This document shows, piece by piece, positions 1 through 19,766 of a stretch of DNA of 25,503 bases (position 1 is the first letter of the stretch; the number at the start of each line of letters is the position of its first letter). The DNA is from a virus, in IMG/VR virus record IMGVR_UViG_3300028829_004816, positions 1-25,503 of that record; one strand, written 5' to 3'. The translations under genes and the position numbers were made by a program. The notes under the pieces were generated by a model that was given only the letters and a program-made list of their open reading frames with translations, was not told the DNA's origin and did no database searches.

Positions 1-3000
1 TTACCAGCAACACCCTGTTGACCAGCAACACCTTGTTGACCTACAGCACCTTGAACACCTTGTTCACCAGCAGCACCTTGCTGACCCTGATTACCTACAG
101 CACCTGTAGCACCTTGGTTACCTACAGCACCATCAGCACCCTGTTGACCTTGAGCACCTATATTACCTTGGTTACCTTGAGCACCTATGTTACCTTGTTC
201 CCCAGCAGCACCCTGTTGACCCTGATTACCTACAGCACCTATGTTACCTTGGTTACCTACAGCACCATCAGCACCCTGTTGGCCTACAGCACCTATGTTA
301 CCTTGGTTACCTACAGCACCAGCAGCACCTTGCTGACCAGCAACACCTTGTTGACCTTGAACACCTTGAACACCTTGTTCACCAGCAGCACCCTGTTGAC
401 CAGCAGCACCCTGTTGACCCTGATTACCTACAGCACCTGTAGCACCTTGGTTACCTACAGCACCATCAGCACCCTGCTGACCTACAGCACCATCAGCACC
501 TTGGTTACCTACAGCACCAGCAGCACCTTGCTGACCAGCAACACCTTGTTGACCTTGAACACCTTGAACACCTTGTTCACCAGCAGCACCCTGTTGACCA
601 GCAACACCTTGCTGACCCTGATTACCTACAGCACCTGCAGCACCTTGGTTACCTACAGCACCATCAGCACCCTGCTGACCTACAGCACCATCAGCACCCT
701 GATTACCTACAGCACCAGCAGCACCCTGTTGACCAGCAACACCTTGTTGACCTTGAACACCTTGAACACCTTGTTCACCAGCAGCACCTTGCTGACCAGC
801 AACACCTAGTTGACCCTGATTACCTACAGCACCTTGATCACCAGCAACACCTTGATCACCAGCAACACCTTGTTGACCCTGAACACCTTGAGCACCTTGT
901 TGACCAGCAGCACCCTGTTGACCAGCAGCACCCTGTTGACCAGCAACACCTTGTTGACCTTGGTTACCTTGAGCACCTACAGCACCCTCGGCACCTTGTT
1001 GACCTGCAGCACCTTGTTGACCTGCGGCACCTTGCTGACCAGCAGCACCTTGCTGACCAGCAACACCAGCAGCACCTTGTTGACCTTGAACACCGGTTTC
1101 ACCAGCAGCACCTTGTTGACCTTGAACACCGGTTTCACCAACACCGCCTTGTTGACCTTGAGCACCCTGAGGACCAGTTTCTCCAGTAACCGCTCTAGAA
1201 AAAGTTTGTCGTTTGGTAATTACTTCTTCATTACCCGCCGAATCTACGATAGTTATTTCATACTCAATAAGAGCATTGTTTTCTGTGACATCAAAGTTTG
1301 TATGATCTTGATAAATAACACTTGTTGCAGGACTCGGTACTGTCTGGGCTCCTACAGTAATATTTACAGGAGTAGTGTTTGATACTCGGAAAGAAGGTTT
1401 GAGTACGGGGGAAGAATCACTATATTTAAGGGGTATTGCACCACTTGAAGCAAAAATTGTAGTACCACTATTTGATTCATCTGCAAGATTAGGTGATACA
1501 GTGTTATCTACAACAATCGTATGAGAGTCGTTAGAAAGAATAACACTAATAGAACTTAAGGCAACAAAAGATTCTCCCTGTATACCGCTTGGTTCCGGGG
1601 AAGCGTTTTTATTAGGATAATAAGAAGAAAATATCTTTTTAGGTATGTTTCCTAATTGTTGAGAAGTATTTGAAAGTCTTGAAACTCGAATCCAGTAGTA
1701 TCGGAAGACTGATTCCGTAGAAGTAGTCTCTTGAAGTATAGGATCTGTGAGAGTATTTGAGCTAGTAGTCGCTACGAGACTTGCAGTACTAAAACTATTA
1801 GTATCTGATCTATATATCTCAAAAGTATCTGTAATACTCGAGAAACCAGTAGGGAATGACCAAGAAAGATCTATGCCTCCGGCTTTATTACCAGTAGCAA
1901 GAAGATTATTAACTGCCGTAGGAGAAGCTGTTATACTTGTTGTTGGAGGAGAGGGTACATAAGGACCTACTTCTCCGGTGACACCATCCGAACCATCTAC
2001 TATATAGGCAGTATCTGTGTGCTCTTCTGCGGTTACCTGAACTAAACAGTTCTCTAAAACTGTAAGGTTTGTAATTCGAAAAGGTTTATCTGTAAACTCA
2101 AGAGCTTTATTTGTTACGGTAATAATCTCACCGGCAAGTAAAAGTATGCCTTTTGGCCCCATTTGGAAATTAATAGACATACCAAAACGAGACTCTTCCA
2201 GATATTGTCTAGCATTTAGTCTTGCATTAAAGTAATTCGTTACTCCAGGAGACTTTACATCGCCTTTTTTAGGTATGTTCCTGTCTTGCTTTAAATAATC
2301 TGAGTTAAGGAAGCTTACAGATCGTGATTCAAACCTGTTTTGGGGATCGAAAATAGATGCAGAAACAGTATTGTAAGTACCTTTTGTACCTGGGTCAGTA
2401 ATATTGATCGACCCGATAATATCATCTTCTGTAATAATAGAAGGAGTATAAGTTACACCATTTGCACTAATAGATTCGTCTGCGTCTTTTTTACTTCTAA
2501 TGTCCAACTGGTACACACCGGCATTATATCTTAGTATACCGTTAAAGTGACCAAGCATACTATTTACATTTGCAAAAATAGACTTAGAAGTATCAACAAC
2601 AATATTTGTCTGGTGTCTTGTTACATATTCCTGCCGTGGCTCTTCCCAACCAAGATATCTCCAATATTTGACTTCATCGGAGTCATAAAGAGTATAGCCG
2701 TCAACATACTTTTGATTAATAAATCTCTTGACCAGTGGGTTTTTATTAAAGGCGGCTGTACTTAATTCGAGCGCAAAAGAACCGCCACCCTCTTTAGCTA
2801 AAGAGAGCGATGATTCACCACTACCTGTGGGGGCTGTAGTTATCCTCCCAATACCGCTATTAATGTAGACTTGTCCATTATGCCAATATAAATCTTCATC
2901 TTTATAATTATACCAATTATTCCATTTTCTACCTAATTTTCCATATACGTCTGTTAGGCGAACTTCTTGGAAAGTAAGCTCTGGAGAAGTACCGGTATCT

Positions 3001-5906
3001 GTATATTGAGTTACAGAAGCTACAGTTCCTCTAAATAGAGTTCTACCTGCAGAAGTGCTATACGTTAGAACATCACCAATATTGGGAGCAGTAGTAGTGT
3101 GAACAAATACATCCGATCGAGTATCACATTTTCGAGCCGTATCTAGGAACGAATTTACGTCTATGTCTTGATCTAGAGATAGTCCTCTACCGTACCTTTC
3201 ACTTGTAATATAGTCGAGAGTTTGTACTGCCGGATTTATGCTTACTCGTTTGTCATTGGCTCCAAGTATCTCTACCGTATCCCCTACATTAGGAATATAC
3301 TCGACATCCCATGCAGGGGATACTCTCAGTAACTTAAAGGTGCCATCAACACCGTAACTAGAAATTACTCTTTCTTGAACGTAAGTGGAGCCATCGGCTT
3401 CTGTTCTTGTTAGTTTTACTTTAAGACCTGTGTAAGCATCTACAACACTGCTTGCTCCTGCTGGTAATAAAACAGAATTAGTATTAACAAGAGTAGTTCC
3501 AAATGGACTAGTAGTACTTCCCACATCGTTAATAGTACCATTTGTATCGTTATTAGTTGCTGGGGTGAATTCCTGTAATGCTTGCAATTCTGCATCAGAA
3601 AGCCCTTCAAGAGCAAGCTCTTCTGCTTCTATAATAGCAAAGGCGGCATTGGAATCGCTGTTGGAAGCTGCTACCGCACTTCCAGAATCTACTGTAACGT
3701 CTTGACCTTGATTAGAGCCAGCTGTACTAGTTAAAATTTCTTCTTCTAGTGCTTCTGGCACCGTTCCTGTAAAGTAAACGGCATCATAAGTATTTAAGTA
3801 AATTCTACTTTCAGGGCTTCCTGCTTTCTTAATATAGAATTTTTTCGAATCCCCTATATTAGGGTTGCTGTTAAACTTAACTCGAAGCTCGTCTACGTTA
3901 CTTTCCGTCTTAATAAAAAAGAGATCTCTAATCCTAGCAGTCCCTATAAGAGAGTCTGTGCCTGTATCATACAAACTAACTTCTTCGCCTATATTATACT
4001 GGCTAAAGTCAGCGCTTGAGATAGTAGGGTCTAGTTTATATGAGAAGTCGTAGTTGTAACAATCTATTAGTTTGCCTTTTACAACAAAATCAAGTTCTGG
4101 TATAGTTACTTCATTTTCTGAAACAAGATATTTTGCGACTACATAGGCAGTATCAAGGAGTCTATGATTCGGCCCCCAGTATCTAGAAGGATCTCCTTCG
4201 AAGTAATCTGTTTGAAGTTTGAAACCTAAACCCTGAGCTTTAGAGACTAAAGTGTTATCTGCTTTTTGATCAGGTTTTCCTGTATGAATAGTAAGACGAG
4301 CATCAATTGGGTCATTAAAGTTTCTTCCTTTTTCGTGGAATACTCCAGTTGCTGACTCTTGTACTTCGTTTGCAGCTTCAGAATCAAACCCAGTATATAT
4401 TGGAAAATATGTCCTGTCGAGTGGCGCAATATAGCCTGTTCCAGATCTTCTACTTATATCTACAGCCCCTTCGACAATGTCGGCTGCGTAAAGAGTTGTT
4501 GTTGGATCAAAGGTATCTTGTGGTTTTAAAACATCTCCTCGATCCATTCTTCCAGTACAGAGAACAGGAACCGTATTATCAGAGTTTTGTGTAGATCGGG
4601 TATCGTTATCTTGTTCGTTAAGACAAATACTATTCTGGTCATCAAAGTAGATATCGTAAATACTATGAATCTCTCCTTCGCAGATAGCGTAAGCTACATA
4701 GATTTCCGCAGAATTATTTTTATCTGTATCTACAAATACAGGTATAGAGTCAACTTTTTGAACTCCATAAATAACGGGTAAGTATTTAGCCTGTAGATTA
4801 AATCTCAAGTCTGCTTGTCTGTCTACATCGACTTCATATTCAACCATCTTATAAGACTTTTTAAGACCAAAAAAACTACTTTTCTTCTTTAACTTATATT
4901 TTGTTTCTTTAGCCTGATAAATAGCAATAAGATTGATAGCTTGTTCTGAGTGCATAAAGCCCAGATCGTTACCATACTCTGATCTTAAAAGTGCATCATA
5001 CTGAGGGGCTCCAGAAGCACTAACCGCCCTGTGCTCAGTATCTGAAGTTATCCTTCCATTAACATTTATGAAGTCTCCCCAATGGCTAGTGACAGACCAG
5101 TTAACAGTAGTTCCTTTAGAAGGATCTTCTGTCATTTTTCCTGAATTAATTATTCCTTTAAATAATAGAAAAGGAGCACTTAATATATCACCGGTTTCAG
5201 GATTAATATGTGCTTTGTATATAAAAACTTCTCTATTAATGTATCGAGCATAATTTGATTCGCCTTTATCTAGAAGTAGACCTGTTACTGATTGGGTATC
5301 ATATACTACGTCTGTATTAGAAACAGTTTCTACTGCAGGAGCGATGTTTCCTTTTATAAGGGTATAGTTGGCTGTTTTATTATCATTTGTAAAAGTATCT
5401 AGTCTTATTATAGCAGTAGAGTTCCAAGAACCACCAATAGTTCTGTTAAACCGTACTTCGTGTCCTTCTATAAAACCGGCGTCAACAAAGTCTTCTCCAC
5501 TTGTGATTTCTAAAGTCTTTGCTGTATCGTTTATACTAAGAGAAGCACCTTCTATTTTTGTAGAGATAGCTGTAGCCGCTAATTTTATATTGAAGTTGGA
5601 AGCTCTAGCTTCGATTGTCTCTGTTACATTTGATACGGATAAAAGAGTATTTGCTCTATATTTTTGAGTACCGTTACCTACTCCGGAAGCATTAGAAGAA
5701 TTGTCATCGAATGAAATATCATAAGAAGCGTCAGTAATGTAGGTATAGTTTTCTGCTTTTCGAGAAGGTATCTCACCAGATTCATTAAGGGGTTTTTCAA
5801 ACTTTACCAAATGAGCATATACGAAAAGATCCCCTTCTAAAAGGGAGTCTTGTAAATCAGTATTTTCAGGACTTTGATTAACGTCCTTTATATTTCTATA
5901 AGCCAT
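1..5906 (-). CDS. Giant J-like tail-tip/receptor-binding protein with collagen-like C-terminus (partial, open at left edge)
   Basis: I read this frame codon by codon from the ATG at 5906 to position 3 and found no stop, giving at least 1968 residues; the 3' end lies outside the window. The ATG overlaps the previous stop as TAATG. The N-terminus (about 1-300) resembles tail hub domains of the DUF2163 type. The next part resembles lambda J (motif LPVIYGVQKV, about residues 375-385). A fibronectin type III domain follows at about 1319-1410 (starts PPTTSITAS, contains IDLSWSF and YYWIRVSRLS), then an Ig-like stretch. From residue 1575 to the edge every third residue is Gly. By family knowledge J proteins form the tail tip and contact the host receptor. 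The collagen part probably makes a trimeric stalk. Assignment as a tail-tip protein is strong; the inner domain borders are approximate. Confidence 0.9.
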   Translation of the reverse strand, partial: MAYRNIKDVNQSPENTDLQDSLLEGDLFVYAHLVKFEKPLNESGEIPSRKAENYTYITDASYDISFDDNSSNASGVGNGTQKYRANTLLSVSNVTETIEARASNFNIKLAATAISTKIEGASLSINDTAKTLEITSGEDFVDAGFIEGHEVRFNRTIGGSWNSTAIIRLDTFTNDNKTANYTLIKGNIAPAVETVSNTDVVYDTQSVTGLLLDKGESNYARYINREVFIYKAHINPETGDILSAPFLLFKGIINSGKMTEDPSKGTTVNWSVTSHWGDFINVNGRITSDTEHRAVSASGAPQYDALLRSEYGNDLGFMHSEQAINLIAIYQAKETKYKLKKKSSFFGLKKSYKMVEYEVDVDRQADLRFNLQAKYLPVIYGVQKVDSIPVFVDTDKNNSAEIYVAYAICEGEIHSIYDIYFDDQNSICLNEQDNDTRSTQNSDNTVPVLCTGRMDRGDVLKPQDTFDPTTTLYAADIVEGAVDISRRSGTGYIAPLDRTYFPIYTGFDSEAANEVQESATGVFHEKGRNFNDPIDARLTIHTGKPDQKADNTLVSKAQGLGFKLQTDYFEGDPSRYWGPNHRLLDTAYVVAKYLVSENEVTIPELDFVVKGKLIDCYNYDFSYKLDPTISSADFSQYNIGEEVSLYDTGTDSLIGTARIRDLFFIKTESNVDELRVKFNSNPNIGDSKKFYIKKAGSPESRIYLNTYDAVYFTGTVPEALEEEILTSTAGSNQGQDVTVDSGSAVAASNSDSNAAFAIIEAEELALEGLSDAELQALQEFTPATNNDTNGTINDVGSTTSPFGTTLVNTNSVLLPAGASSVVDAYTGLKVKLTRTEADGSTYVQERVISSYGVDGTFKLLRVSPAWDVEYIPNVGDTVEILGANDKRVSINPAVQTLDYITSERYGRGLSLDQDIDVNSFLDTARKCDTRSDVFVHTTTAPNIGDVLTYSTSAGRTLFRGTVASVTQYTDTGTSPELTFQEVRLTDVYGKLGRKWNNWYNYKDEDLYWHNGQVYINSGIGRITTAPTGSGESSLSLAKEGGGSFALELSTAAFNKNPLVKRFINQKYVDGYTLYDSDEVKYWRYLGWEEPRQEYVTRHQTNIVVDTSKSIFANVNSMLGHFNGILRYNAGVYQLDIRSKKDADESISANGVTYTPSIITEDDIIGSINITDPGTKGTYNTVSASIFDPQNRFESRSVSFLNSDYLKQDRNIPKKGDVKSPGVTNYFNARLNARQYLEESRFGMSINFQMGPKGILLLAGEIITVTNKALEFTDKPFRITNLTVLENCLVQVTAEEHTDTAYIVDGSDGVTGEVGPYVPSPPTTSITASPTAVNNLLATGNKAGGIDLSWSFPTGFSSITDTFEIYRSDTNSFSTASLVATTSSNTLTDPILQETTSTESVFRYYWIRVSRLSNTSQQLGNIPKKIFSSYYPNKNASPEPSGIQGESFVALSSISVILSNDSHTIVVDNTVSPNLADESNSGTTIFASSGAIPLKYSDSSPVLKPSFRVSNTTPVNITVGAQTVPSPATSVIYQDHTNFDVTENNALIEYEITIVDSAGNEEVITKRQTFSRAVTGETGPQGAQGQQGGVGETGVQGQQGAAGETGVQGQQGAAGVAGQQGAAGQQGAAGQQGAAGQQGAEGAVGAQGNQGQQGVAGQQGAAGQQGAAGQQGAQGVQGQQGVAGDQGVAGDQGAVGNQGQLGVAGQQGAAGEQGVQGVQGQQGVAGQQGAAGAVGNQGADGAVGQQGADGAVGNQGAAGAVGNQGQQGVAGQQGAAGEQGVQGVQGQQGVAGQQGAAGAVGNQGADGAVGQQGADGAVGNQGATGAVGNQGQQGAAGQQGAAGEQGVQGVQGQQGVAGQQGAAGAVGNQGNIGAVGQQGADGAVGNQGNIGAVGNQGQQGAAGEQGNIGAQGNQGNIGAQGQQGADGAVGNQGATGAVGNQGQQGAAGEQGVQGAVGQQGVAGQQGVAG
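3..1184 (-). repeat. Collagen-like Gly-X-Y repeat region of the tail-tip gene
   Basis: Read on the minus strand, a Gly codon (mostly GGT) occurs every 9 nt from 1184 down to position 3, about 131 uninterrupted Gly-X-Y triplets. Common triplets are GQQ, GAA, GVA, GAV, GNQ, GVQ, GAD and GEQ. Gln, Ala and Val dominate and Pro is almost absent, as in many phage and bacterial collagens that lack hydroxyproline. The region starts with GETGPQGAQG. The repeat also creates long spurious ORFs on the plus strand (18-809 and 810-1382, rich in TLLT and STL). Confidence 0.95.
155..840 (-). repeat. 198-bp tandem repeats inside the collagen region
   Basis: Blocks 353-550 and 551-748 are near-identical 198-bp units (22 Gly-X-Y triplets, 66 residues); by eye they differ at about 8 positions. 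The unit starting at 749 matches for roughly 90 bp and then diverges. Block 155-352 matches mainly in its second half, and a further partial copy lies at about 20-150. This is a higher-order period above the 9-nt one, as expected from unequal crossover or slippage. Confidence 0.85.
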
Positions 5907-6619
5907 TACTGCACTTCCATTGCGCTTAGACTATACTTATATAGGTTATCTGTTCCTAGGTTATAAGATACTACGTCTGATTTTTGTATTACTTTAATTT
6001 TAGGGTTTTTATATATTACAATGGCGCTTGAACTAACGTCTTTTTGTAAGGGCGGAGATACCGTAATAGTTTGCTGAGTTATTGTAGGCTGTGTTCCTTC
6101 GAAAGTAGCATTAGTACTTACCCTTACTATTTTATAGGCTTTTAAATGATTTGAGTCATTGGAGTCATTGAACGTAATAAGGTCTCCAGGCTTTAAACTA
6201 CCATCAGTACTAGAATCATAACTTGGGTCTGCTATTGTTAAAGTTACTTTTCCTGCTGCATAGTTAGTAATGGGACTAAAGTTAATAGTACCTGATGCGG
6301 CTAAAGTAGAGTCTCTTGGGCTATCATACTGAGGTAAAGGCACGAAGAAAGGCTTTAGCATACCTTGCTTTTCCATAAGAAAAGAATATACGGGCATAAA
6401 CTCATCTTCAGTAAGGGGATTATAAGTTATATTAACATCGAAAGACTGAGCAGCTTTAGACCTAGAAATTAAAACACCTGAGTTAGTAGTATCCCTAGCT
6501 GTTTTAAACTTAGAGTCTACTTTAACTGTAGCATAGCCAGGCTCATTAGAGGCAGATACTATGCCACCAGCCTGATTAATACCATTACTAGGGTTTGGTA
6601 ATGTATTTTGAATTGCCAT
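5906..6619 (-). CDS. Distal tail (Dit-like) / minor tail protein
   Basis: A 237-aa protein between the tape measure and the J-like tip gene, the place where distal-tail or minor tail proteins are encoded. Both junctions are TAATG stop-start overlaps (6619-6621 and 5906-5908), so translation is probably coupled. The middle part has YNPLTEDEFMPVYSFLMEK followed by GMLKPFFVPLPQY. That pattern (polar start, then f-p-fl, then a beta strand ending in LP) occurs in small phage tail proteins that join the tube to the tip. The C-terminal half looks beta-rich (LKPGDLITF, KAYKIVRVS, QQTITVSPPL). Assignment as a distal tail protein rests mainly on position and this weak pattern. Confidence 0.65.
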   Translation of the reverse strand: MAIQNTLPNPSNGINQAGGIVSASNEPGYATVKVDSKFKTARDTTNSGVLISRSKAAQSFDVNITYNPLTEDEFMPVYSFLMEKQGMLKPFFVPLPQYDSPRDSTLAASGTINFSPITNYAAGKVTLTIADPSYDSSTDGSLKPGDLITFNDSNDSNHLKAYKIVRVSTNATFEGTQPTITQQTITVSPPLQKDVSSSAIVIYKNPKIKVIQKSDVVSYNLGTDNLYKYSLSAMEVQ

Positions 6620-9600
6620 TATGCTTTACCTGCTCCTTGCGCGTCAGGAGTATAAACTCCTATATTTATTTCTTCTAAGAAATCGTCACCATAAGAATTG
6701 GCCGCTTCTCTTAACATTCCTATTATGTTTCCTCGTTGCTCTGTTAGTATAGTTTCTACACCGCTAGCATCGAGTGCTTGAATTGAGAAATTGACGTTTT
6801 GTGTGGGCTGGGTAGCAACATCTTCGTTAGGTACAACAGTTCCTGGAGTATCTGGAACGAATAATTCTGGTCCCTGCTCTCCAACTACATAACCTGCGTT
6901 TCCGCCCATAGCTCTGTAACGAGCGCCCATAAAGGCAGGAGTAAAGTTACCTGAACCTCCAGTTCCTGACTGTCCACGGAGGTATCCAAGTTCTCCTGCT
7001 GCTGACTGTGATCTTGCTAAGTCTACGGTATTGCTTCTTTGCCCTACAGTAATTGTGCTAGGAGTCGATTGAGAAGCACCTCCCGAACCACCCCCTTGAT
7101 AAGTACTGCTTGCAATCATTGCTAGTTGAGCTACACCCATTGCTGCTACCATTGCTGCTAAGGCAATGTTTGCTGGGAAAGGGGAAGAGGCATACATCTG
7201 CATTACCGCGGAAGCTGTATTTATAACTGCCTGAGCCATTTTCATTTTCTTATCTTTTTCAAACGCTTTTCTTTTGATAGCTTCTTTTTTAGCTTCTAAC
7301 TGTTTAATCTTAGCTAGAGACTCTTTTGATTTTCCGTCCTTTTTCTTCTCGGCCGCTATCTCTTTATCAACCGCGGCAACAGCCATATCGCTTTGTGCTT
7401 TCATCATCTGCCCAATCGCACCGATTGCTGATGATATACCGCCCAAAACAGCTTGTGCTTTTTCTGAGGCTCCTTCTGCTTTTTTAAAGTTTGTTATTGT
7501 ACTGCTAATACTGTCTGTTAAAGCTAGGCCTCCGCCAACAAAAGCACTCATTGCTTGGCCTTCTGGACCGAGTTGTGCTAAGTCTGCTGCAAAACCTTGA
7601 GCTAGTAATCGGGCTTGTTGGAGGGGGGTTACATCTACACTAGCCCCTACTTCCGACGCAGTTTCTGCCGCAACACTATTTACATCTGTTGAGATATCAG
7701 CGGCTGTGCCAGTTGCTGCTGTAGAAGCTTCGGGAGTTGTTCCTCCTGCCGCAGCGGCTGTGCCAGTTGCTGCTGTAGAAGCTTCGGGAGTTGTTCCTCC
7801 TGCCGCAGGTGCTGAACCTCCTTCAGGAGCGGGCTGCCCTCCAGGTAAAATAGAGCTTAACGCAGTAGCTATACTTTGAGGTAGTCCTACCAACTGCTCA
7901 ACTATAGCGTCCTTCATTTCGACAGTAGCTAGTAATTGTGCTTCAGGAATTTTGTTATCAAACTTTTCAGATATAGCTTCTAATGTTTTTTCTGTAACTG
8001 ATTTAGGCTCTGCTGACTGCATTCCTTGAATAACAGCACCTGCAGCAGCTAAACCTGCTCCCGGACCACCACTTTCTGCAGCTTTTTTTATTGCTTCTGT
8101 GGCTTGCTTCATTCTCTCAAGCTCAAACTGCTTTGCGAGAAGCTCTTCTTCCCGTTCCATAGTAGTCTTTTGCTGTTCGAATAACTCTTTTCTTCTATCT
8201 ATGCTTTGTATTTCTGCTTCTTGAGCTGCTTTTGCGCCTTCACCAGACAAGTCCATACTATTGATGCGAGTAGTATCTGCATCTATTTGATCTTGAATTC
8301 GTTGAGCTGCCATACTGTTTTCTAGTTGCAAGAAAGCCATTTTAGTCTGTCTTTCGCTTTCTGCAAGTTTTGCGGCTTCTCCCAAGAACTGTAAATCTAC
8401 TTCCCCTGTAAAGGGATTGATTAGTCCTAGTTGTTGAATCTCTAATAAGATTTCAGCCTGTCTCTTCGCACCTTTTACAAAAGCGTCAGCATAGTCTCTT
8501 TGGTCTTTAAGTATGCTTTCTCGAGCGTCAGCAGAAGCTTTTTGAACAGCAATCTGGCCTTCAACGATTGTTTCAGCAACACCGGCCGCAGCAGCCTGAA
8601 TAGCTGAGGTTCTTATAGCTCCGGCGTCTATACTACCAATTAATCCTTTTAGTCGAGCCCCTTCCGCTTCCAATAGTTTACCATTCTCAACATTTGCTGC
8701 GATTTCAGCAAGCATTAAAGCTTTCTTCGCTTCTAATAGCGCATAATCAAGTTGAATCATTTCGGTCTTAATGTCAAACTCTCTAATAGCAGCATTAATT
8801 CGTGTCTCTGCTTCTTTCTTTGCAAAGGTGACTTCTTCTTGAGGGGAAAGGGCTTTTCGAGTACCCTGCTGTAATATCTTCTCTATTTTAAGTTGAGCGG
8901 AAGCAATAGCGTTCTGGAAGCCTACTTGCTTTTTAAGCTCTGAAGTAGTAGCTCTTTCATATTTTTGTCGAAGCTGTACTGCTCTCATCGCCCCTTGAGC
9001 GATTTGTAGTTTTGCTTCTTCCCCTTGAACTATCTGATCATTTAAATTTTTGTTTTCGTCAGTTAATCGATTAATCTCTGCTTGTACTACTTTTTCCTCA
9101 TCGCGTAGATCAGTAAGTTGGTTAACTATACCAACCTTTTCTTCTTCGGTTTTAGCCCCTTCCAAGGCAGTTGTTAATCTTTGCTTATCAGTAAGAAATA
9201 CAGCCTTACGTCTTTTTTGTTCGGCAAGTAAAAGCTTATTTGATTTTACTTTACTCTCAAGCAGTTCGTTCTCTTTGTCAATTCGAGCTTGAATAGAGCC
9301 TGCTTCAAAAGTTTCATTTCTTTTTATAAGAGCTAGCTGTGCCTTAAGACCGGCATCTTTAGCTTTCTGGGTCTTTAAATCAAGATCTAGTTGTTTAACT
9401 GCTTCGGCAGTCTGCTTAACTTTTTCTGCGAATATTTCTGCTTCTGCATTTCTTTGTTCCTCAAGTCGCTTTATCTCCTGGTCGGCCACCTTTCCTTGCT
9501 CTACTTGAAGCCGTAGTCGATCCGCGTACTCACTCGAGCCAACTGCTCGGATATACCAGTTTTCTTCTGCGTTTCTACCTTTTTCGGCTACTTCTTGATT

Positions 9601-11868
9601 TTCTCTTATTTGGTTATTTATATCTGTAATCTGATCGTATTGTGGGCCCAACCCTAAGTCAAGAGCTGTTTTTCTAGAAACCTGTTCTGTAATAACTGTT
9701 GGTACAGTAGTCTCTGAACCTTCTTTTCGAGCATTCTCAATTTGCCGAGTCAAGTCCGTTAAAGCTTTACTCGCTTCAGTAAATGGAGTAGTAATTGAAA
9801 TAGACTGTCGAAGACTTGCATAAGCCTCGTCTACAGATTTTGCTGCCTCTGCTACTCCTCGAACAGCGTTAGCTTGTCTTAAAGCACCAGTAACACCGTC
9901 CTCTAAAATCTTTAGTCGTTCTTCTTCAGATCCCCTTAGATTTTTTACGTCTATTCCCTGTTGCTTTAGAATGTCAGTAAGGAACTCACTATTTTCAATA
10001 AACCCTTCTAATAGTTCCAGGCGTTTTCCGGTATCCCCACCCTCAAGCTTTATCATTTCAGCTTGTACAGTCGTAAGAGTATTTGACATATTTGTGTATG
10101 CCAAACTTAGAGTAGCAATAGAAGAAGTTTGTCCTTTGAAGTAACTGTCTAATTCTTTAGTAGCATTGCCTAGTTCGTTAATAGTATCTTTTGCAGACGA
10201 CAGATTCTCTTCGAATCGCTTTGTCTCGTCCGACTTAAAGAAATTCCAAATACCCATTAGTACGTCAAATAAAATCATAAGAACTGCTATAACTTGACCG
10301 ATAACAGGTATTGAACTAACAATACCGATCATAGCGGTCTTGAAAGCTCTTGCAAATCCCATAATCGAAATTTTTGAAATTTGTACGGCCCTGGTAAAGC
10401 CTGTGAGATTCTTATACGCACCTTTTAGGGTTCGAGTAAAGCGAAGAGTAGCAACAGTCATTCGTCGCTTAGCTTTAGTCCAACGACCTTGGGCAATATC
10501 GTTTAGAAGTACTGCAGCAGTGTTTTGGTTCTTTGCTTTGGTCATTTGACTTTCAAAACCAATAATTAGTTTTGAAACGCCTGCCTGTCTCTTACGAGCA
10601 TTGTCTAAATTAACTTCGGCAGCTGCAAGCTTTTTAGTAACATCTACACCTTGAGCCTGTTTCTTCTTTAGGTTTTCAAGTCTTGTAGTAGCTGATTTTA
10701 CATTGCTTGCTTGTTCTTTTAAAGCCGCGTCTCTCTGCTGAAAAGTAGAGTTTCCGGCTTTCATTGATTCGGTAAGGCCCTTTAAGGCTTTTGATTGTTT
10801 AATGTACTTAGGAAGTTCAGAAGCAATTTGAGTACCAACTTTTTTCTGAAGTTTTCCTAAACTCGCTAAGTTGACATTAAAAGGAATTAATGCTGATACA
10901 GCTTGAGCTACTACTTTTCCTCCTAGCGCACCAACTACACCTAGTAGAGCTACGGGGCTCATTGCCAAAAAACTAACTAAAGGCTCAATGGCAACACTTA
11001 TAAAAGTAGTTACGGTCTTTGCAAGGTCTGTTAAAGATGCAGCTAGTTTATCATAAGGACTAACATCTACTCGATCGCCAATCGCACCGAACTTTTCTTC
11101 AGCTTGTGAAAGGGCTTCATTCTGGAATGCAATTCGTCTTTCAAAGTTAGTTAGTTCACCAGCAGACTTGCCTAGGCTTTGTGCATACTTTTCTACGGCT
11201 TCGTCGACTCGAACAAATAATCCAAGTTCGTCAAGAAGTTCTGGCTCCAGCTTTGAAATACCGCGAGTAAGTCGATCAAGAGAGTCTGTTACATTTCGTC
11301 CTAATGCGACTGAAATGTTTCTAGCGGCTTCACCAAACTCTTCAATAGAGGAAGGATCTAAGCCGGCACTAACGATCTGGGCAGTGGACCTCATAGCTTG
11401 TTCTAAGCTAATCGCGTTGCCCGTTGCTTCTGCGAGTCCTGTTGAAAGAGTACGCATTGCAATACCAGAGGTAGCGCCTAATGCTGCCAAGCCTGCTTCT
11501 AACTGCTCTACTTGAGAAGCCCGTCGAAGTGCGCCAAATGCTGCAGTAGCCGCAAACAAAGTCGCAGCAACAGTAGCGTAGGCAGCAACTAGTCCATTAG
11601 AGCCTCCAAGAGCATCTCGTTGCTTACTAAAAGCTTTGGTGCTATTTGATGTTGCTCCTGCTACACCCTTCTGGCCTCGGTTATATCGTCCAGACCCGGC
11701 AGTGGCATCGTCAGTTGCTTTAGTATTCTTTTGCTTTTCTTCAGTATTCTTGGCTTGCGCGTCTGTAGTTTTATTTATAGACGCACCAAGCTCCTCCACC
11801 TCACGCTGGACGAGCTTGATATTTGTACCTTCAACGATTACTTCTAAGAGAACTGAACTATCAGCCAC
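6619..11868 (-). CDS. Tail tape measure protein
   Basis: A 1749-aa protein, the longest complete gene here, directly after the tail chaperone ORFs as in lambda (G/GT then H). It starts with GTG at 11868 and overlaps the previous gene by 8 nt. The body is rich in Ala, Glu, Lys and Gln with long predicted coiled coils. Hydrophobic segments lie near residues 296-328, 511-542 (SSIPVIGQVIAVLMILFDV) and 1543-1590, as is common in tape measures that enter the membrane during DNA ejection. A Gly/Ala/Thr/Pro-rich linker at about 1340-1395 contains an exact 18-residue duplication. By the usual rule of about 0.15 nm per residue the tail would be near 260 nm. No peptidase motif was recognised. Confidence 0.95.
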   Translation of the reverse strand: MADSSVLLEVIVEGTNIKLVQREVEELGASINKTTDAQAKNTEEKQKNTKATDDATAGSGRYNRGQKGVAGATSNSTKAFSKQRDALGGSNGLVAAYATVAATLFAATAAFGALRRASQVEQLEAGLAALGATSGIAMRTLSTGLAEATGNAISLEQAMRSTAQIVSAGLDPSSIEEFGEAARNISVALGRNVTDSLDRLTRGISKLEPELLDELGLFVRVDEAVEKYAQSLGKSAGELTNFERRIAFQNEALSQAEEKFGAIGDRVDVSPYDKLAASLTDLAKTVTTFISVAIEPLVSFLAMSPVALLGVVGALGGKVVAQAVSALIPFNVNLASLGKLQKKVGTQIASELPKYIKQSKALKGLTESMKAGNSTFQQRDAALKEQASNVKSATTRLENLKKKQAQGVDVTKKLAAAEVNLDNARKRQAGVSKLIIGFESQMTKAKNQNTAAVLLNDIAQGRWTKAKRRMTVATLRFTRTLKGAYKNLTGFTRAVQISKISIMGFARAFKTAMIGIVSSIPVIGQVIAVLMILFDVLMGIWNFFKSDETKRFEENLSSAKDTINELGNATKELDSYFKGQTSSIATLSLAYTNMSNTLTTVQAEMIKLEGGDTGKRLELLEGFIENSEFLTDILKQQGIDVKNLRGSEEERLKILEDGVTGALRQANAVRGVAEAAKSVDEAYASLRQSISITTPFTEASKALTDLTRQIENARKEGSETTVPTVITEQVSRKTALDLGLGPQYDQITDINNQIRENQEVAEKGRNAEENWYIRAVGSSEYADRLRLQVEQGKVADQEIKRLEEQRNAEAEIFAEKVKQTAEAVKQLDLDLKTQKAKDAGLKAQLALIKRNETFEAGSIQARIDKENELLESKVKSNKLLLAEQKRRKAVFLTDKQRLTTALEGAKTEEEKVGIVNQLTDLRDEEKVVQAEINRLTDENKNLNDQIVQGEEAKLQIAQGAMRAVQLRQKYERATTSELKKQVGFQNAIASAQLKIEKILQQGTRKALSPQEEVTFAKKEAETRINAAIREFDIKTEMIQLDYALLEAKKALMLAEIAANVENGKLLEAEGARLKGLIGSIDAGAIRTSAIQAAAAGVAETIVEGQIAVQKASADARESILKDQRDYADAFVKGAKRQAEILLEIQQLGLINPFTGEVDLQFLGEAAKLAESERQTKMAFLQLENSMAAQRIQDQIDADTTRINSMDLSGEGAKAAQEAEIQSIDRRKELFEQQKTTMEREEELLAKQFELERMKQATEAIKKAAESGGPGAGLAAAGAVIQGMQSAEPKSVTEKTLEAISEKFDNKIPEAQLLATVEMKDAIVEQLVGLPQSIATALSSILPGGQPAPEGGSAPAAGGTTPEASTAATGTAAAAGGTTPEASTAATGTAADISTDVNSVAAETASEVGASVDVTPLQQARLLAQGFAADLAQLGPEGQAMSAFVGGGLALTDSISSTITNFKKAEGASEKAQAVLGGISSAIGAIGQMMKAQSDMAVAAVDKEIAAEKKKDGKSKESLAKIKQLEAKKEAIKRKAFEKDKKMKMAQAVINTASAVMQMYASSPFPANIALAAMVAAMGVAQLAMIASSTYQGGGSGGASQSTPSTITVGQRSNTVDLARSQSAAGELGYLRGQSGTGGSGNFTPAFMGARYRAMGGNAGYVVGEQGPELFVPDTPGTVVPNEDVATQPTQNVNFSIQALDASGVETILTEQRGNIIGMLREAANSYGDDFLEEINIGVYTPDAQGAGKA
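7698..7805 (-). repeat. Perfect 54-bp tandem duplication in the tape measure gene
   Basis: Bases 7698-7751 and 7752-7805 are identical. They encode two copies of an 18-residue unit containing AAGGTTPEASTAATG in the Ala/Gly/Thr linker (about residues 1355-1391). The duplication is in frame. Confidence 0.95.
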
Positions 11869-12223
11869 GATTTTTTCTCTTCATCTTGTCATACTCACGC
11901 TTTAAATTCTCTTGTGACTTTTTAATTGCGTGGTTGTCAAGCCTAGATAATGCTTCCATAGTGAGGTCAACATTATCAATTTTATAAAGATCTAGTAGTA
12001 TAGGTAAGTTTGTATAATCTTTACCAATATACCCTATTTCTGGAAAAACTCGGTCTCCGAGTGAGTTAAATATATTTATAGCATCTATTAATAAGTCTGG
12101 TAAATCTTCATCACCTGGTGGACATTCATCCCAATTTGGTTCTTGCCCTAGTTGTTCTTTCATGTCCAAGTATTTATCCTTGGTCATTTTGGAATCGCTA
12201 TTTTTCTGCCACTTTTCCAGCAA
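11861..12223 (-). CDS. Tail assembly chaperone, downstream (T-like) ORF of a G/GT pair
   Basis: This frame is open from the TTG at 12223 to the TGA at 11861. It overlaps the upstream chaperone ORF by 26 nt and lies just before the tape measure gene, the position of lambda T. The product is acidic then basic (contains QEPNWDECPPGDEDLPDLL and ends KREYDKMKRKNRG), typical of the T part of GT fusions. It is most likely made as the C-terminal part of a frameshift fusion of about 245 residues, entering near 12198-12206. A GAGG stretch 6 nt before the TTG, or the internal ATG at about 12187, leaves independent translation possible. Confidence 0.75.
   Translation of the reverse strand: MLEKWQKNSDSKMTKDKYLDMKEQLGQEPNWDECPPGDEDLPDLLIDAINIFNSLGDRVFPEIGYIGKDYTNLPILLDLYKIDNVDLTMEALSRLDNHAIKKSQENLKREYDKMKRKNRG
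12198..12206 (-). other. Candidate programmed frameshift site (GAAAAATAG)
   Basis: The upstream chaperone ends GCA GAA AAA TAG; the downstream ORF reads CAG AAA AAT AGC. The change of frame is therefore -2 or +1. A tRNA-Lys on AAA can slip back two bases onto AAA within the A5 run with perfect re-pairing while the stop codon waits in the A site. A +1 slip would move it to AAT. A stop in the downstream frame just before the TTG at 12223 limits the shift to the roughly 30 nt ending here. Confidence 0.6.
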
Positions 12224-12599
12224 ACACTACCTCGTTTATCCAGTTATCAAACTCAGTAGAATTTTGAACAAGAACTTCAGCTTGTTCCGAGTCGTAAGGA
12301 AGCTCTGAATCAGGATCATTATCACCTAAGTCAACTAACAATAGATCTTCCAAAAAGGATAATTTAAAACCTTTCCAACCTTTAATAGTAGCTTGAGTGA
12401 ATTCATGAACAAACTTTTCTTCATCTAAAACTTCTTCTGGTTGTCGCGTTTTACGATTAAACTTTGTAGAAACACACCTTTTTCTCAATGAAACTAACTC
12501 CTTCCTAGAAAGATTAGCCACTTTTATTTCAAGCCCGGAGCATCCGGGAAAATCAACCCAAGCAGACTTTGAGTCTACCATTAAATCTTTTAACTTCAT
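12198..12599 (-). CDS. Tail assembly chaperone, upstream (G-like) ORF
   Basis: A 133-aa protein upstream of the tape measure. The ATG at 12599 has AGGAG with 5-nt spacing, which overlaps the end of the previous gene. The N-terminus (MKLKDLM, then WVDFPGCSGLEIKVANLSRK) has the usual pattern of phage tail chaperones: a short beta part, then a helix with LSRKEL and LRKRC. The length is close to lambda gpG (140 aa). By family knowledge it coats the tape measure during tail assembly and is absent from the virion. Its stop follows a run of five A, the likely frameshift site into the downstream ORF. Confidence 0.85.
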   Translation of the reverse strand: MKLKDLMVDSKSAWVDFPGCSGLEIKVANLSRKELVSLRKRCVSTKFNRKTRQPEEVLDEEKFVHEFTQATIKGWKGFKLSFLEDLLLVDLGDNDPDSELPYDSEQAEVLVQNSTEFDNWINEVVFAGKVAEK

Positions 12600-12607
12600 T
12601 AAAACTC

Positions 12608-13537
12608 CTAATATGTAAAATAAGTATCTAAACCCGCACTCTTAGTGAGACGGTAATCATAGTTCTGAGCAAAAACTTCACCGAAGTTTGCCCGGTTAGT
12701 AAACGAACAAGCATCTACTATATTCACGTCCAACTGATAATTCGAGCTAGAGAGCCCAGCTTGAATTCTCACAGTTGTATCTGTGTCCCAAGTTTGTATC
12801 TTAGAAGTTGAGGTATCTACAGTGGAGTTAACATATTGACTAATGCTACCACCGAGAGTTCTACCCCCTAAGGAAAAAGACTCTGGGTAAACAGAATTAG
12901 AGGCATCCGTAGAGATTGAAGTATTTTGTACTGTAGAATTCTTTGTCCAAGAAATCTTGTTTGTTACTTCAAGAGACGCACTTAATATATTGTCTAGTTT
13001 ATCGCTTCCTATTGTAACGCTAACATCATTTGACACTGCATATGTAGGGTCAGAGTCAAAGCTAGAGTCTACGCCAGGAAATACTCCAGTAGTACGAGTA
13101 AGTTTAGTACCGTCACCTTGTAATTCAACGGTCATTATACCCGAGCGCGGAATGTTAAAAGTTCCGCTAGTAAATACACATTTTTCTATTTTATAGTAAA
13201 CTTGAGGACTATAATCCGCGTATACAAAATATAGATTGAATGTATTGTAACTATTTCCAGAGTAGTTCAACAACAAATCAAGTGGTTTGTGTTGGTGTGT
13301 TGATGTTTCATCTACGACATAGATCTCAAAGGAGAATTTAGCCGGATTTGCTGTGTTAATGACAGCACCATCAAATAAATCATTTAAAGAATGCAAAGTT
13401 CTTTTTTTAGGAGAACTTTGCTTAAAAGTTTGATTAAACGCAATTTCTCGAGTAGTATGTAAGCGATAATATGTATGAGGAGACGTAGAAGTATCCTCTA
13501 AATACAATAACCCCTGTCTACTGAACTCGAAACTCAC
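12608..13537 (-). CDS. Second tail tube-like protein
   Basis: A 309-aa protein starting at GTG 13537 with AAGGAGG and 4-nt spacing, a strong ribosome binding site. It has its own consensus promoter and a 5' hairpin. The N-terminal layout parallels the major tail tube protein just upstream: a short beta start (MSFEFSRQGLLYLED), then IAFNQTFKQS, a loop, and ANPAKFSFEIYVVDE, against FSFSQSINSS and PAEWSFSTYVRP in the neighbour. Later come IPRSGIMTVELQGDG and beta-rich repeats. It probably forms a tube-like ring, either a second tube protein or an adapter at the tube end. The paralogy is inferred by eye and could be convergent. There is no sign of decay. Confidence 0.6.
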   Translation of the reverse strand: MSFEFSRQGLLYLEDTSTSPHTYYRLHTTREIAFNQTFKQSSPKKRTLHSLNDLFDGAVINTANPAKFSFEIYVVDETSTHQHKPLDLLLNYSGNSYNTFNLYFVYADYSPQVYYKIEKCVFTSGTFNIPRSGIMTVELQGDGTKLTRTTGVFPGVDSSFDSDPTYAVSNDVSVTIGSDKLDNILSASLEVTNKISWTKNSTVQNTSISTDASNSVYPESFSLGGRTLGGSISQYVNSTVDTSTSKIQTWDTDTTVRIQAGLSSSNYQLDVNIVDACSFTNRANFGEVFAQNYDYRLTKSAGLDTYFTY

Positions 13538-13637: not shown

Positions 13638-14786
13638 TTAAGCCTTATAGATAATTGTAGCTTCGTCAGTTGAGTCAACATTACCATTAGCTACCTGTCC
13701 GTGGAATGCGACTTCCAAAGTAAGCAAGTCTTCCACGTTAATAGTGGGTACTTCTAGGTGTGCTGTTGGTAAATCAAGAACCAATCTAGGAGTTGCTGCA
13801 GTTACTCCGCCTACGTTTACAGCCATATCGAACACATTACGAACAGTAGTTGTATCAGAGACTAAGTCTGCGAATAGTTCTCCAGACTTCGATGCCGCTT
13901 GATCGTTATCGAAGTAGCAAGTAACAGAACCGGTAATTGTACGAGCACCTGTAATATTTGCAAGAGGAGAATTAACTTTACCAAGCTCTTCTGGAGTAAG
14001 GTAAGTAATATTATTTTCGATAGAGAATGATCCACCAGTAAGTACAATATTGTAAACATCTTCTGGAGAAACATCTTTTCGAAGCAGAGTAAGTGTAGAG
14101 ATACGATTACGAATAAAGTTATCTGTACCAGAAATACCACTAGTAATTGCTGCACTCAGGTCACCCGGGAAAACCTGAGGCGATGTAGCCTCTGGTGCCG
14201 TAGTACCAAGATCTTCAATATCCTGAGAGAATCCAGACCACGCAATTGTTGCGATGCCATCAATATCAAAATCAAGACTTGCTGAGTTAGCTACAGCTTT
14301 GTTTAACCTAAAGAATTGCTTGTTAGTTCCATCTTCAAAACCAAATACTATGTTCCAGTTATCGGGCATAGCTGAGATGTTAGATCCATTTAAGTTAAAA
14401 GCATTCTCTGTAGAGCCAGTAAGCGTATTAACTGTAGGAATAGGGGACTCGATTTCCTTGCCTGAATAAACGTTTGCTGAGAACGAAGAAGCACCAAACA
14501 ACATAGCCCAAAGAGCCTGCTCAGGAGCAAGTACATTAGTATCTACTGCAGGACGAACATATGTGCTAAATGACCATTCAGCAGGTGCTAAACTATCATT
14601 GAATAGTAATCGTGCGCGGCGAGAGGTTTCGCCAGCTTCATTAATTGTAATCTCACTAGAGTTAATACTCTGAGAGAAAGAGAACCCTTCCAGAACAGGT
14701 ACTTTCCAGGTTGTAAGCACGGCATCCCGTGCCGTATTCATACACTCGATGTATATGTCTGCATTTCTTTGAAATTGTAATGCCAT
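13638..14786 (-). CDS. Major tail tube protein
   Basis: A 382-aa protein after the tail terminator gene. The ATG at 14786 has GGAG with 7-nt spacing. The sequence is beta-rich with few Cys and Trp, as in tube proteins. The C-terminal part has TITGSVTCYFDNDQAAS and TINVEDLLTLEVAFHGQ, a pattern typical of siphovirus and myovirus tube proteins, where the last strands close the ring. A promoter and 5' hairpin follow directly after the stop. The protein stacks in hexameric rings to form the tail lumen. The gene order (terminator, tube, chaperones, tape measure) supports the call. Confidence 0.85.
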   Translation of the reverse strand: MALQFQRNADIYIECMNTARDAVLTTWKVPVLEGFSFSQSINSSEITINEAGETSRRARLLFNDSLAPAEWSFSTYVRPAVDTNVLAPEQALWAMLFGASSFSANVYSGKEIESPIPTVNTLTGSTENAFNLNGSNISAMPDNWNIVFGFEDGTNKQFFRLNKAVANSASLDFDIDGIATIAWSGFSQDIEDLGTTAPEATSPQVFPGDLSAAITSGISGTDNFIRNRISTLTLLRKDVSPEDVYNIVLTGGSFSIENNITYLTPEELGKVNSPLANITGARTITGSVTCYFDNDQAASKSGELFADLVSDTTTVRNVFDMAVNVGGVTAATPRLVLDLPTAHLEVPTINVEDLLTLEVAFHGQVANGNVDSTDEATIIYKA

Positions 14787-17377: not shown

Positions 17378-19441
17378 TTAGCCGCCATACTTATAAGCCA
17401 CAACCTGTCCGCCATCAGCAAACATTCTGTCGAAGCCACGACGCTGAGAAGCTACGAGGACGCGACGCTGGTTCGCTACTTCATAGTCTTGCTCAATAGT
17501 TACACCGCGAAGTACGGGTACAACCATGTTGCGTGAGTTAACAGCCAAAGCGAAGTGCTTGCCTACGCCTGCTGATGCGAATTCATCACAAACAACGACG
17601 GGCGATCCCCAAAGGTTACCGATCTCACCAGTAATACGTGTAGCATTACGCTCACCTACTGTGTTGATAGGCTGGAAATCGGGATCTTCTAACAATGCAT
17701 AGTAGCAGTCAATAGAGACTACGTACATTACATCGCCAGGACGACGACCGTATTTGCCCATTACAGTACGCATTTCGAGCAACTTGTTAGCAGCCGTTTC
17801 GCCAAGATCCTGAGTAGCAGGAGAAACTTCAGTAGCAGTCAGAACTTTAGTGTCGTCTGTTGCAAACTTCAGAAGTCCTGCATAAGGAGAAGCGATAAGA
17901 TCATCTGTTGATGCTCCGTTCAAGATTGAGTGCTCAATAGAACGCGCATGTGAGCGTACCATTGCATCACGAATCAAAGGAAGAATTGGAATAATCGCAT
18001 CTTCTTCTGTCTCGTTTACCAAGTAAGAGTTAGAAACCAACTTGGAAGCAGTCAAGATCTTGTTAGTCATGTCGATGCCGCCATACGTCTCGGGAGAAGT
18101 AGGGACGTCGCCACGCTGAGTCAAGTTACCGTGAGGTGCAGAACCACTACCGGCACCAGCTGCGCCGCTCCACTGTGCATAACCTGCGTCAGGCATAGTA
18201 GGAACAACCATAGAAGCTGCGTTCATTTGGATCTTACGGAACATAGGATCTAAAACGAGCTCTAGCTGAATGTCTTGCTCAATTTGAGTAGAAACAAAGC
18301 TTTCCAGATCCGTAGTAGCTGAGCTACCAACTTGAACACCAGAATCGGCATTAACTTTTTCTAAGATATTACGACCAATTTTTGTGTCATAACCTTTATT
18401 GGTGATAACACCAAGTACGTGTGCGTCAAGAACTTCCTCACGCATGTTTGCGAGACTGGACTTCTGATCAGTACGATCAGCAAATACACGCTTTGACTCA
18501 CGCATTTTTGAAATCTCATCTGATTTCTCAGACAATTCATTCTTTAACTCGCCTACGATTTTCGCGTAGTCAGCATTTTTCTCAGCAAATTTTGCTTCGA
18601 GGTCGCTTACGAGCCTTTCAGTACCAGATTGTACTGCTGTTACAATTCGAGCTTCTTCGCTAGCCTTCTGAGTTTGGGCTTCTTCAGCAGCTTTTTGCTC
18701 TGCTTCCAATGCTTTAGACTCTTCTGCCTTGCGCTCAGCTTCTTTCATCGCCATTGCCGTTGCGGTCTTTTCGACAGCAGCGGCTACAATAGCATCTACA
18801 TCAATGTCACTCATAGTTTTCTCCTGTACTTGGACTCCACTGGAGTCCTTAGGCATTGATTCGTCAGATTTTCCAAACTCTACTACGAAACTTTCTTCGG
18901 TCTCCCGAACGTTTCGTATGTGTTTTTCTGAGGAATCATTCGTGTTGAAAGATTTTTTGAACTCTTCATACTCGTGATCCGAGTCAAAAGATTTTGCAAG
19001 AGAAAAGGTTGCAGCCTGGTTAGCAGGAACCGTTACTACTGAAACTTCCAGTAATTCTGCATCCTTGATTCTATACCCGTCTGTTTCCTTCAAATGCTCT
19101 GCGTCCTTGACTCGGAAACCAACGGAAAATGCTCCAAGAACGCCCTCTTTAATCAATTCGCCAACATGACCGGCTGATTTAGCAATTTTTGCTTTTAACT
19201 GCAAACCATTATCATTAGTACCAAGCTGAACTGCTCGGCCAATCGGCTGGTTGTAGTCATGATTAAACAGGATAACGGGATTGTTTAAATAATTTTGAAG
19301 TCCACCCTTTGTCCAGGCTTCGGTCTCGATTATATCCCCCACACGGTCGGTACCAGAGGTACTGGCCATACCAGTAATATGAAGATCGTCTCCGTCTTCA
19401 TATGCTTTAAAGGTAGAGCCAATGTGAAAAATTTTATTCAT
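17378..19441 (-). CDS. Prohead protease - major capsid protein fusion (HK97 type)
   Basis: One ORF of 687 aa. I chose the ATG at 19441, with AGGAG at 6-nt spacing and an 8-nt overlap with the previous gene; the frame is open to a TTG at 19447. Residues 1-155 are a U35-type prohead protease: FNHDYNQPIGRA carries the catalytic His (about 61), GVLGAFSVGFR the Ser (about 106), and ELLEVSVVTVPAN is typical. A linker follows, then an Ala/Glu/Lys-rich coiled coil (about 210-330) like the scaffolding delta domain. The HK97-fold capsid protein makes up the rest (MFRKIQMNAASMVVPT, SRNMVVPVLRG, near the end FDRMFADGGQ). The protease should cut itself and the delta domain away during maturation. An internal ATG at 18814 with its own ribosome binding site can make the capsid protein alone (478 aa). 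Confidence 0.93.
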   Translation of the reverse strand: MNKIFHIGSTFKAYEDGDDLHITGMASTSGTDRVGDIIETEAWTKGGLQNYLNNPVILFNHDYNQPIGRAVQLGTNDNGLQLKAKIAKSAGHVGELIKEGVLGAFSVGFRVKDAEHLKETDGYRIKDAELLEVSVVTVPANQAATFSLAKSFDSDHEYEEFKKSFNTNDSSEKHIRNVRETEESFVVEFGKSDESMPKDSSGVQVQEKTMSDIDVDAIVAAAVEKTATAMAMKEAERKAEESKALEAEQKAAEEAQTQKASEEARIVTAVQSGTERLVSDLEAKFAEKNADYAKIVGELKNELSEKSDEISKMRESKRVFADRTDQKSSLANMREEVLDAHVLGVITNKGYDTKIGRNILEKVNADSGVQVGSSATTDLESFVSTQIEQDIQLELVLDPMFRKIQMNAASMVVPTMPDAGYAQWSGAAGAGSGSAPHGNLTQRGDVPTSPETYGGIDMTNKILTASKLVSNSYLVNETEEDAIIPILPLIRDAMVRSHARSIEHSILNGASTDDLIASPYAGLLKFATDDTKVLTATEVSPATQDLGETAANKLLEMRTVMGKYGRRPGDVMYVVSIDCYYALLEDPDFQPINTVGERNATRITGEIGNLWGSPVVVCDEFASAGVGKHFALAVNSRNMVVPVLRGVTIEQDYEVANQRRVLVASQRRGFDRMFADGGQVVAYKYGG
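18812..18825 (-). promoter_or_regulatory. Internal ribosome binding site and start for separate capsid protein
   Basis: Inside the fusion ORF, AGGAG (18825-18821) stands 6 nt before an in-frame ATG (18814-18812). The product starts MSDIDVDAIVAAAVEK, exactly at the edge of the delta-like coiled coil. This is the arrangement of nested genes such as lambda C/Nu3, and would supply most capsid subunits without protease attached. Confidence 0.8.
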
Positions 19442-19766
19442 CAGCAACTCCTACTTTTCTTTTGCTTTTGCGAAGTTTTGCTAAGGCATCCGATACATCT
19501 TCCTTTGGTGCAGGTTCAGGAACTACAATAGTCTCCTTTACTTTTACCTTTGGTTGATGCTTTGGAGCCCCAATCTCTGCCCATCTGCTGGCAAAAATTC
19601 GCGGAAAACGACGCATAGCATCTCGTAAATCACCTTCTGGAAGAACGTTACGAAGTTCTGCTGCTTCATGCGGGTATTTAGTACGGAACTCTGTGACTCC
19701 CATAACCTTACCTTCAGTTACAAAACATTGAAATGCACTCTCAAAAGCTTTTTGACGTCTACTCAT
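19434..19766 (-). CDS. Hypothetical protein between portal and capsid fusion
   Basis: A protein of 110 aa starting MSRRQKAFESAF at ATG 19766, with AAGGAG at 9-nt spacing; an in-frame ATG at 19775 (113 aa) abuts that AAGGAG directly and is less likely. It overlaps the portal stop and the protease start. The N-terminal 70 residues look helical (FRTKYPHEAAELRNVL, DLRDAMRRFPRIFASRWAEIG). The C-terminus is Lys/Pro/Val-rich (VKVKETIVVPEPAPK) and basic (LRKSKRK). I do not recognise it. Its place between portal and protease suggests a head assembly or connector accessory role. Confidence 0.8.
   Translation of the reverse strand: MSRRQKAFESAFQCFVTEGKVMGVTEFRTKYPHEAAELRNVLPEGDLRDAMRRFPRIFASRWAEIGAPKHQPKVKVKETIVVPEPAPKEDVSDALAKLRKSKRKVGVADE

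Follow-up and report, generated by a model that had tools for sequence, protein, structure and literature searches.

Comparison of the tail genes of a marine virus of bacteria with those of its relatives indicates that two overlapping tail assembly chaperone genes are, in this lineage, very probably joined by a +1 ribosomal slip on a UUU_CGN site, and that the virus itself inherited the +1 arrangement but its contig carries a 48-nucleotide (nt) deletion of the site. The stretch analyzed, hereafter the window, comprises 25,503 nt of IMG/VR record IMGVR_UViG_3300028829_004816, and the two open reading frames (ORFs) concerned, which we call G and T, lie on its minus strand. On the sequence evidence, +1 slippage on UUU_CGN is well supported at the level of the family. 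A preliminary description of the window had noted the frame relation of the pair, which is confirmed here, and had placed the shift on a run of five adenines (A5) at the end of G, with a -2 slip as its mechanism, which is not supported; it had also named +1 as the alternative, and this is what the family comparison favors.

G, the upstream ORF (133 amino acids [aa], positions 12198-12599; phrog_313, E=2e-12), ends at a TAG stop (12198-12200). T, the downstream ORF (11861-12223; phrog_3914, E=2e-15), whose reading frame is already open at 12226, has codons that begin 1 base after those of G, so that it is reached by +1 or -2 and not by -1. The two open frames overlap by 29 nt (12226-12198), close to the 30 nt estimated earlier, the terminal codons being GCA GAA AAA TAG, and the fusion sizes proposed at that stage, 245 aa (+1) and 246 aa (-2), were correct. 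The proposed identity of the pair is likewise upheld by matches to the PHROG tail assembly chaperone (TAC) families; with this family similarity and their position between the tail tube genes and the tape measure gene, G and T qualify as a putative G/GT-type pair. An IMG/VR scan with T yielded 73 relatives, and further relatives were found through G. All 73 relatives found through T show the same relative frame as the window, so that the frame relation can be put down neither to chance nor to a local error in sequencing the A run, a source that the preliminary description had considered.

For the comparison, loci with T at +1/-2 relative to G were assigned to phase 1, and those with T at -1 to phase 2. 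A G-frame TTT_C lies within the overlap in 103/103 of the phase-1 relatives fetched (84 distinct, non-redundant G proteins), with the window as the sole phase-1 exception, whereas 3 of the 38 phase-2 loci contain TTT_C in the overlap and 35 do not. The slip codon is TTT in 84/84 non-redundant phase-1 loci, and the codon after it is CGT in 65, CGC in 14, CGA in 3, and CAC in 2, which amounts to a family-level preference for CGN in the A site in 82 of the 84. Two phase-1 loci, L112 and L113, have UUU_CAC instead of UUU_CGN. In the relatives of T, the G frame follows the codon pattern GAG GTA GTC TTT GAY YTN NNN AAY TTT CGN, and the conserved peptide at the site is Asn-Phe-Arg. The distance from TTT CGN to the G stop ranges from 18 to 90 nt in the marine relatives, and the spacing between the site and the Met in the T frame is constant in almost every one of 70 marine loci. 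The overlap reaches its minimum, 14 nt, in D386 and measures 26 nt in phage T5, and both still bracket the site.

Such a codon pair is not favored elsewhere: in nearby long ORFs, TTT is followed by C in 187 of 2594 cases (7%), TTT-CNN pairs are depleted (187 observed vs 335 expected), and 59% of Arg codons are AGA or AGG. Moreover, the substitutions in 35 pairs of relatives change their periodicity at the site: upstream of it, they number 252/113/586 and peak at G-frame third positions; between it and the G stop, they number 111/88/171 and peak at the third position of T codons, equivalent to the first position of G codons (chi-square p 3e-7). Because of this second peak, T appears to be read from UUU_CGN on, the T-frame constraint starting at the site. 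Upstream of the slip codon, the marine loci have four synonymously frozen codons, numbers 8 to 5 counted back from it (GAG in 68/69, GTA in 57/70, GTC in 59/72, and TTT in 68/72). In the codon columns of 72 loci they form the element GAGGTAGTCTTT, which occupies the stretch from 24 to 13 nt ahead of the slip codon in the marine relatives, and the window has kept a copy of it, GAGGTAGTGTTT (12222-12233, minus strand). The spacing of the element matches no known Shine-Dalgarno stimulator. An RF2- or dnaX-type stimulator was rejected, as the frozen GAGGU, 19 nt from UUU, suits neither and T5-like loci have no GAGGU; RNA structure was also rejected in this role, the RNAalifold consensus reaching just -1.4 kcal/mol.

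The same arrangement is found in the model phage T5 and its family. In T5, the genes T5p139 and T5p138 are homologous to G and T, with T at +1 and a UUU_CGU site in the context GAU_ACU_UUU_CGU. T lies at +1, with a G-frame TTT CGT or CGA near the end of G, in all 12 Demerecviridae loci first checked (T5 and eleven others), and the site is present in 19/19 when five further records with the standard code and two Aeromonas phages are included; among the five, DT57C and IME260 fall within or close to groups that were represented before. Pectobacterium phage DU_PP_V, another of the five, contains UCC_UUU_CGU, which is letter for letter the influenza A site. The tail genes of the two Aeromonas phages are rich in TAG, and the site and frame relation fit once TAG is read as glutamine. 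These phages, the Shenzhenviruses AhSzw-1 (L155, NC_047950.1) and Akh-2 (L156/L163, MK318083.1), have in-frame TAG throughout their tail genes, and with TAG as Gln, their tail tube, G, T, and tape measure genes become open; the annotation of Akh-2 includes a tRNA-Sup-CTA, and the GenBank annotation of both uses the standard code and is fragmented. No frameshift is annotated in any of the records examined: T5p139 and T5p138 stand as two separate hypothetical proteins without a frameshift, and the T5 structure papers make no mention of a chaperone frameshift. A Tlsvirus-type phage, L091, was rejected as a +1 relative, its match being weak, its T lying in phase 2, and the site being absent.

Relatives found through G split into those with T at +1, all of which contain TTT_C, and those with T at -1, which are without TTT_CGN. 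The phase-2 loci carry canonical -1 tandem-slip heptamers at the same Asn-Phe codons in 26 of 27 non-redundant loci (A_AAT_TTT in 17, G_GGA_AAC in 7, and A_AAT_TTC in 2; the exception is L153), so that the direction of the shift appears to have switched in evolution at one homologous site within a single G family. A tree of G, built on few columns and with some long branches, requires one or two changes of direction and does not reject a single -1 clade (approximately unbiased [AU] test, p 0.37). In L025, L029, L033, and L034, the sequence GAA AAT TTT CGN is suited to both -1 (A_AAU_UUU) and +1 (UUU_C). We consider it likely that +1 slippage on UUU_CGN, hitherto known from viruses of eukaryotes and one vertebrate gene, is used across a broad lineage of tailed phages that takes in T5, the rest of its family, and uncultured marine siphophages, and that on these shared Asn-Phe codons the direction switched, within one chaperone family, between -1 (A_AAU_UUU, A_AAU_UUC, or G_GGA_AAC) and +1 (AAY_UUU_CGN); the four dual-fit sites are possible bridges.

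Against this family background, the window lacks the site. Its G protein shares 95% aa identity over residues 1-126 with that of the contig that holds both L092 and L002, and within the +1 clade it nests firmly beside L002 and L003 (support 100/95 and 100/89), both of which retain the site. A MAFFT alignment of the window with L002, L003, and L004 contains a single clean 48-nt gap starting directly after GTG TTT, with its junction at 12221-12222 (12222|12221). The absent stretch, which in L002 reads GACCTCGATAACTTTCGTTCAGGACCAGATAGAGGAGATGTGGCAAAG, contains the AAC_UUU_CGU site; the UUU_CGN motif is thus missing from the window, covered by the gap, and the bases just upstream in the overlap are the edge of the deletion. 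Since 48 is a multiple of 3, the G/T frame relation is untouched. The TTG at 12223-12221, considered earlier as an independent start of T, spans the junction and hence exists only because of the deletion. Between the window and L002, codon differences number 30 synonymous and 6 non-synonymous in G, and 32 and 26, respectively, in T; G of the window is clearly constrained by this measure, and most of the G/T divergence from L002 may predate the deletion. A degenerate junction pattern matched one other contig only (L075), in an unrelated cell-surface-type gene that we regard as a chance match, and the exact 24-/25-mers flanking the junction gave no match.

In the mechanism that we propose, a fraction of ribosomes would slip +1 while peptidyl-tRNA-Phe occupies UUU and the A site presents CGN, mostly CGU; tRNA-Phe would re-pair from UUU to UUC, reading would continue in T, and a G-T fusion would be made in addition to free G. 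That ribosomes slip at all, in which direction, and how often is inferred, the slip of P-site tRNA-Phe by homology of the signal; so is the role of the fusion, by analogy with lambda gpG/gpGT. A -2 slip at UUU_CGN was rejected, as it offers no re-pairing: from AAC_UUU, tRNA-Phe would reach ACU. In the window, the in-frame loss of 48 nt would have taken UUU_CGN and 16 linker codons without closing either frame. Should the deletion be real, the fusion would be either lost or made through a poor fallback within the 29 nt that remain (+1 on AAA_G, or +1 or -2 on the AAA next to UAG); should it be an error of the contig, the window phage would be an ordinary member of the family. As a +1 motif, UUU_CGN is well established: at the influenza A site UCC_UUU_CGU, the sequenced junction peptide demonstrated +1 on UUU, no -2 peptide was found, and the authors proposed that the UUU_CGN class is active across diverse eukaryotes (PMC3498833); in human PLEKHM2, the +1 motif is UCC_UUU_CGG (PMC12551717).

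The earlier proposal, that a Mu-like -2 slip of tRNA-Lys on the A5 run beside UAG (12201-12205, minus strand) joins G and T in the window phage, draws on a formally perfect re-pairing (AAA to AAA), on a frame relation that is itself compatible with -2, and on the known -2 shift of Mu gpGT, at about 2.2% (PMC3498833; PMC5009743). We nevertheless hold it to be very improbable, because L009 is the only one of the 73 relatives in which a stop follows A5, and it retains UUU_CGN as well, so that the conserved -2 slippery site of a Mu-type shift is not found at the end of G; because the slip is unnecessary for the frame relation of the family; and because A5 lies just past the edge of the deletion that took the conserved site. 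As the 48 nt holding the signal are absent from the window, the A run is not the family's slip site, and with the ancestral site deleted, it could serve there at most as a fallback. Another such fallback, given a real deletion, would be a weak +1 slip on AAA_G (12215-12212, minus strand) or UUU_G (12224-12221), both within the open overlap. AAA to AAG would be a good re-pairing for tRNA-Lys, making AAA_G a candidate alternative site left in the window, but UUG is a poor partner for tRNA-Phe, and no conservation speaks for the use of either, which leaves this route unlikely. That the deletion is instead an assembly error, the true genome having AAC_UUU_CGN like its relatives, is a serious possibility, if somewhat short of an even chance: the deletion was seen in one contig only by the junction-pattern and exact 24-/25-mer scans, linker length is otherwise nearly constant in 70 loci, and loss of the site should impair tail assembly. 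Conversely, the frames remain open and in register, no long repeat lies at the junction, short deletions are uncommon among such errors, and the tape measure gene contains 54 nt duplicated perfectly in tandem (7698-7808), which makes real in-frame indels plausible in this genome; the scans, moreover, may not have covered the records closest to the window.

T could also be a separate protein, made without any frameshift from TTG 12223 or from its own ATG at 12187 (12185-12187, minus strand), the first in the T frame. An ATG occurs at the automatically aligned position in 71 of 84 loci, and such starts were chosen by annotators of T5-like phages. However, the aligned Met is TTA (Leu) in five marine loci and an Ile, Val, Leu, or Phe codon in several T5-like loci, the automatic alignment being rough and some of these only weakly aligned; no Shine-Dalgarno sequence precedes 12187; TTG 12223 arose by the deletion; and the T-frame constraint runs upstream of the ATG, up to UUU_CGN. 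A separate T would further leave unexplained why UUU_C is invariant in phase 1 and canonical -1 heptamers occupy phase 2, and we give this explanation little probability. Several points weigh against +1 slippage on UUU_CGN. The window is itself without the site, many of the loci are related, so that the counts are not independent events, and no conserved RNA structure near the site was seen with RNAalifold. CGU is a common codon in Escherichia coli. T may start independently in the loci with an ATG, and GenBank annotators of T5-like phages put its start at such ATGs; the published evidence for UUU_CGN that we found is eukaryotic (PMC3498833, PMC12551717).

The setting of the pair is that of a tail gene cluster on the minus strand. 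Downstream lies the tape measure gene (6619-11868; phrog_3779, E=7.8e-85), whose GTG start overlaps the end of T; upstream lie a T5-type baseplate tail tube protein gene (12608-13537; PF23779 and PF18906 above cut-off) and a major tail protein gene (13638-14786; phrog_3575, E=3.7e-59). Also on this strand are a further T5-type tail gene with a match to the T5 tail completion protein p143 (PF25747; 15283-16818), an ORF with prohead protease (Peptidase_S78) and capsid domain matches, the latter slightly under cut-off (17378-19447), a second, unrelated chaperone-type gene (Phage_tail_APC, PF16778; 23764-24219), and a very long tail-tip-like ORF that leaves the window (3-5906) and has several hundred collagen-like Gly-X-Y residues at its end.

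Tail chaperones made by frameshifting are a textbook example of recoding, in most cases by -1. As in lambda gpG/gpGT, two chaperone ORFs lie between the genes for the tail tube and the tape measure protein, T is in another frame, and a low-level fusion would be expected; unlike lambda, which shifts -1, the present family would shift +1 on UUU_CGN, and the window's copy is gone. Phage Mu gpGT has the same net frame relation as G/T of the window, but the present family has no conserved -2 site, and re-pairing and conservation favor +1. The UUU_CGN motif and the proposed +1 re-pairing of tRNA-Phe are shared with influenza A PA-X (as well as with amalgaviruses, chronic bee paralysis virus, and human PLEKHM2), whereas the phage case would involve bacterial ribosomes with a common CGU and an assembly chaperone as the product, and the E-site codon is mostly AAC/AAU or ACU rather than the UCC of PA-X. 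Among tailed phages, +1 shifting occurs in structural genes of Listeria phages and SPP1; the Listeria shifts differ in that they use CCC_U, lie in genes for major tail or capsid proteins, and extend the product at its C terminus (PMC5009743). For tail chaperones, shifts of -1, -2, or +1 are all known among phages (PMC5009743), so that +1 as such is not new. We found no report of UUU_CGN in phages, of its spread to T5, or of a direction switch at one site in the open-licence literature, a restriction that makes the lack of a report weak evidence.

If the proposed reading is true, the annotation of T would be corrected in hundreds of phage records, and the model phage T5 would have a conserved +1 shift on the PA-X motif, meaning that UUU_CGN works on bacterial ribosomes too. 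As CGU is common in E. coli, a rare CGU codon cannot explain a UUU_CGN shift there, and this host would allow the part played by the A-site Arg codon to be tested. Moreover, the switch between -1 and +1 at one homologous site would offer a natural series for the evolution of shift direction.

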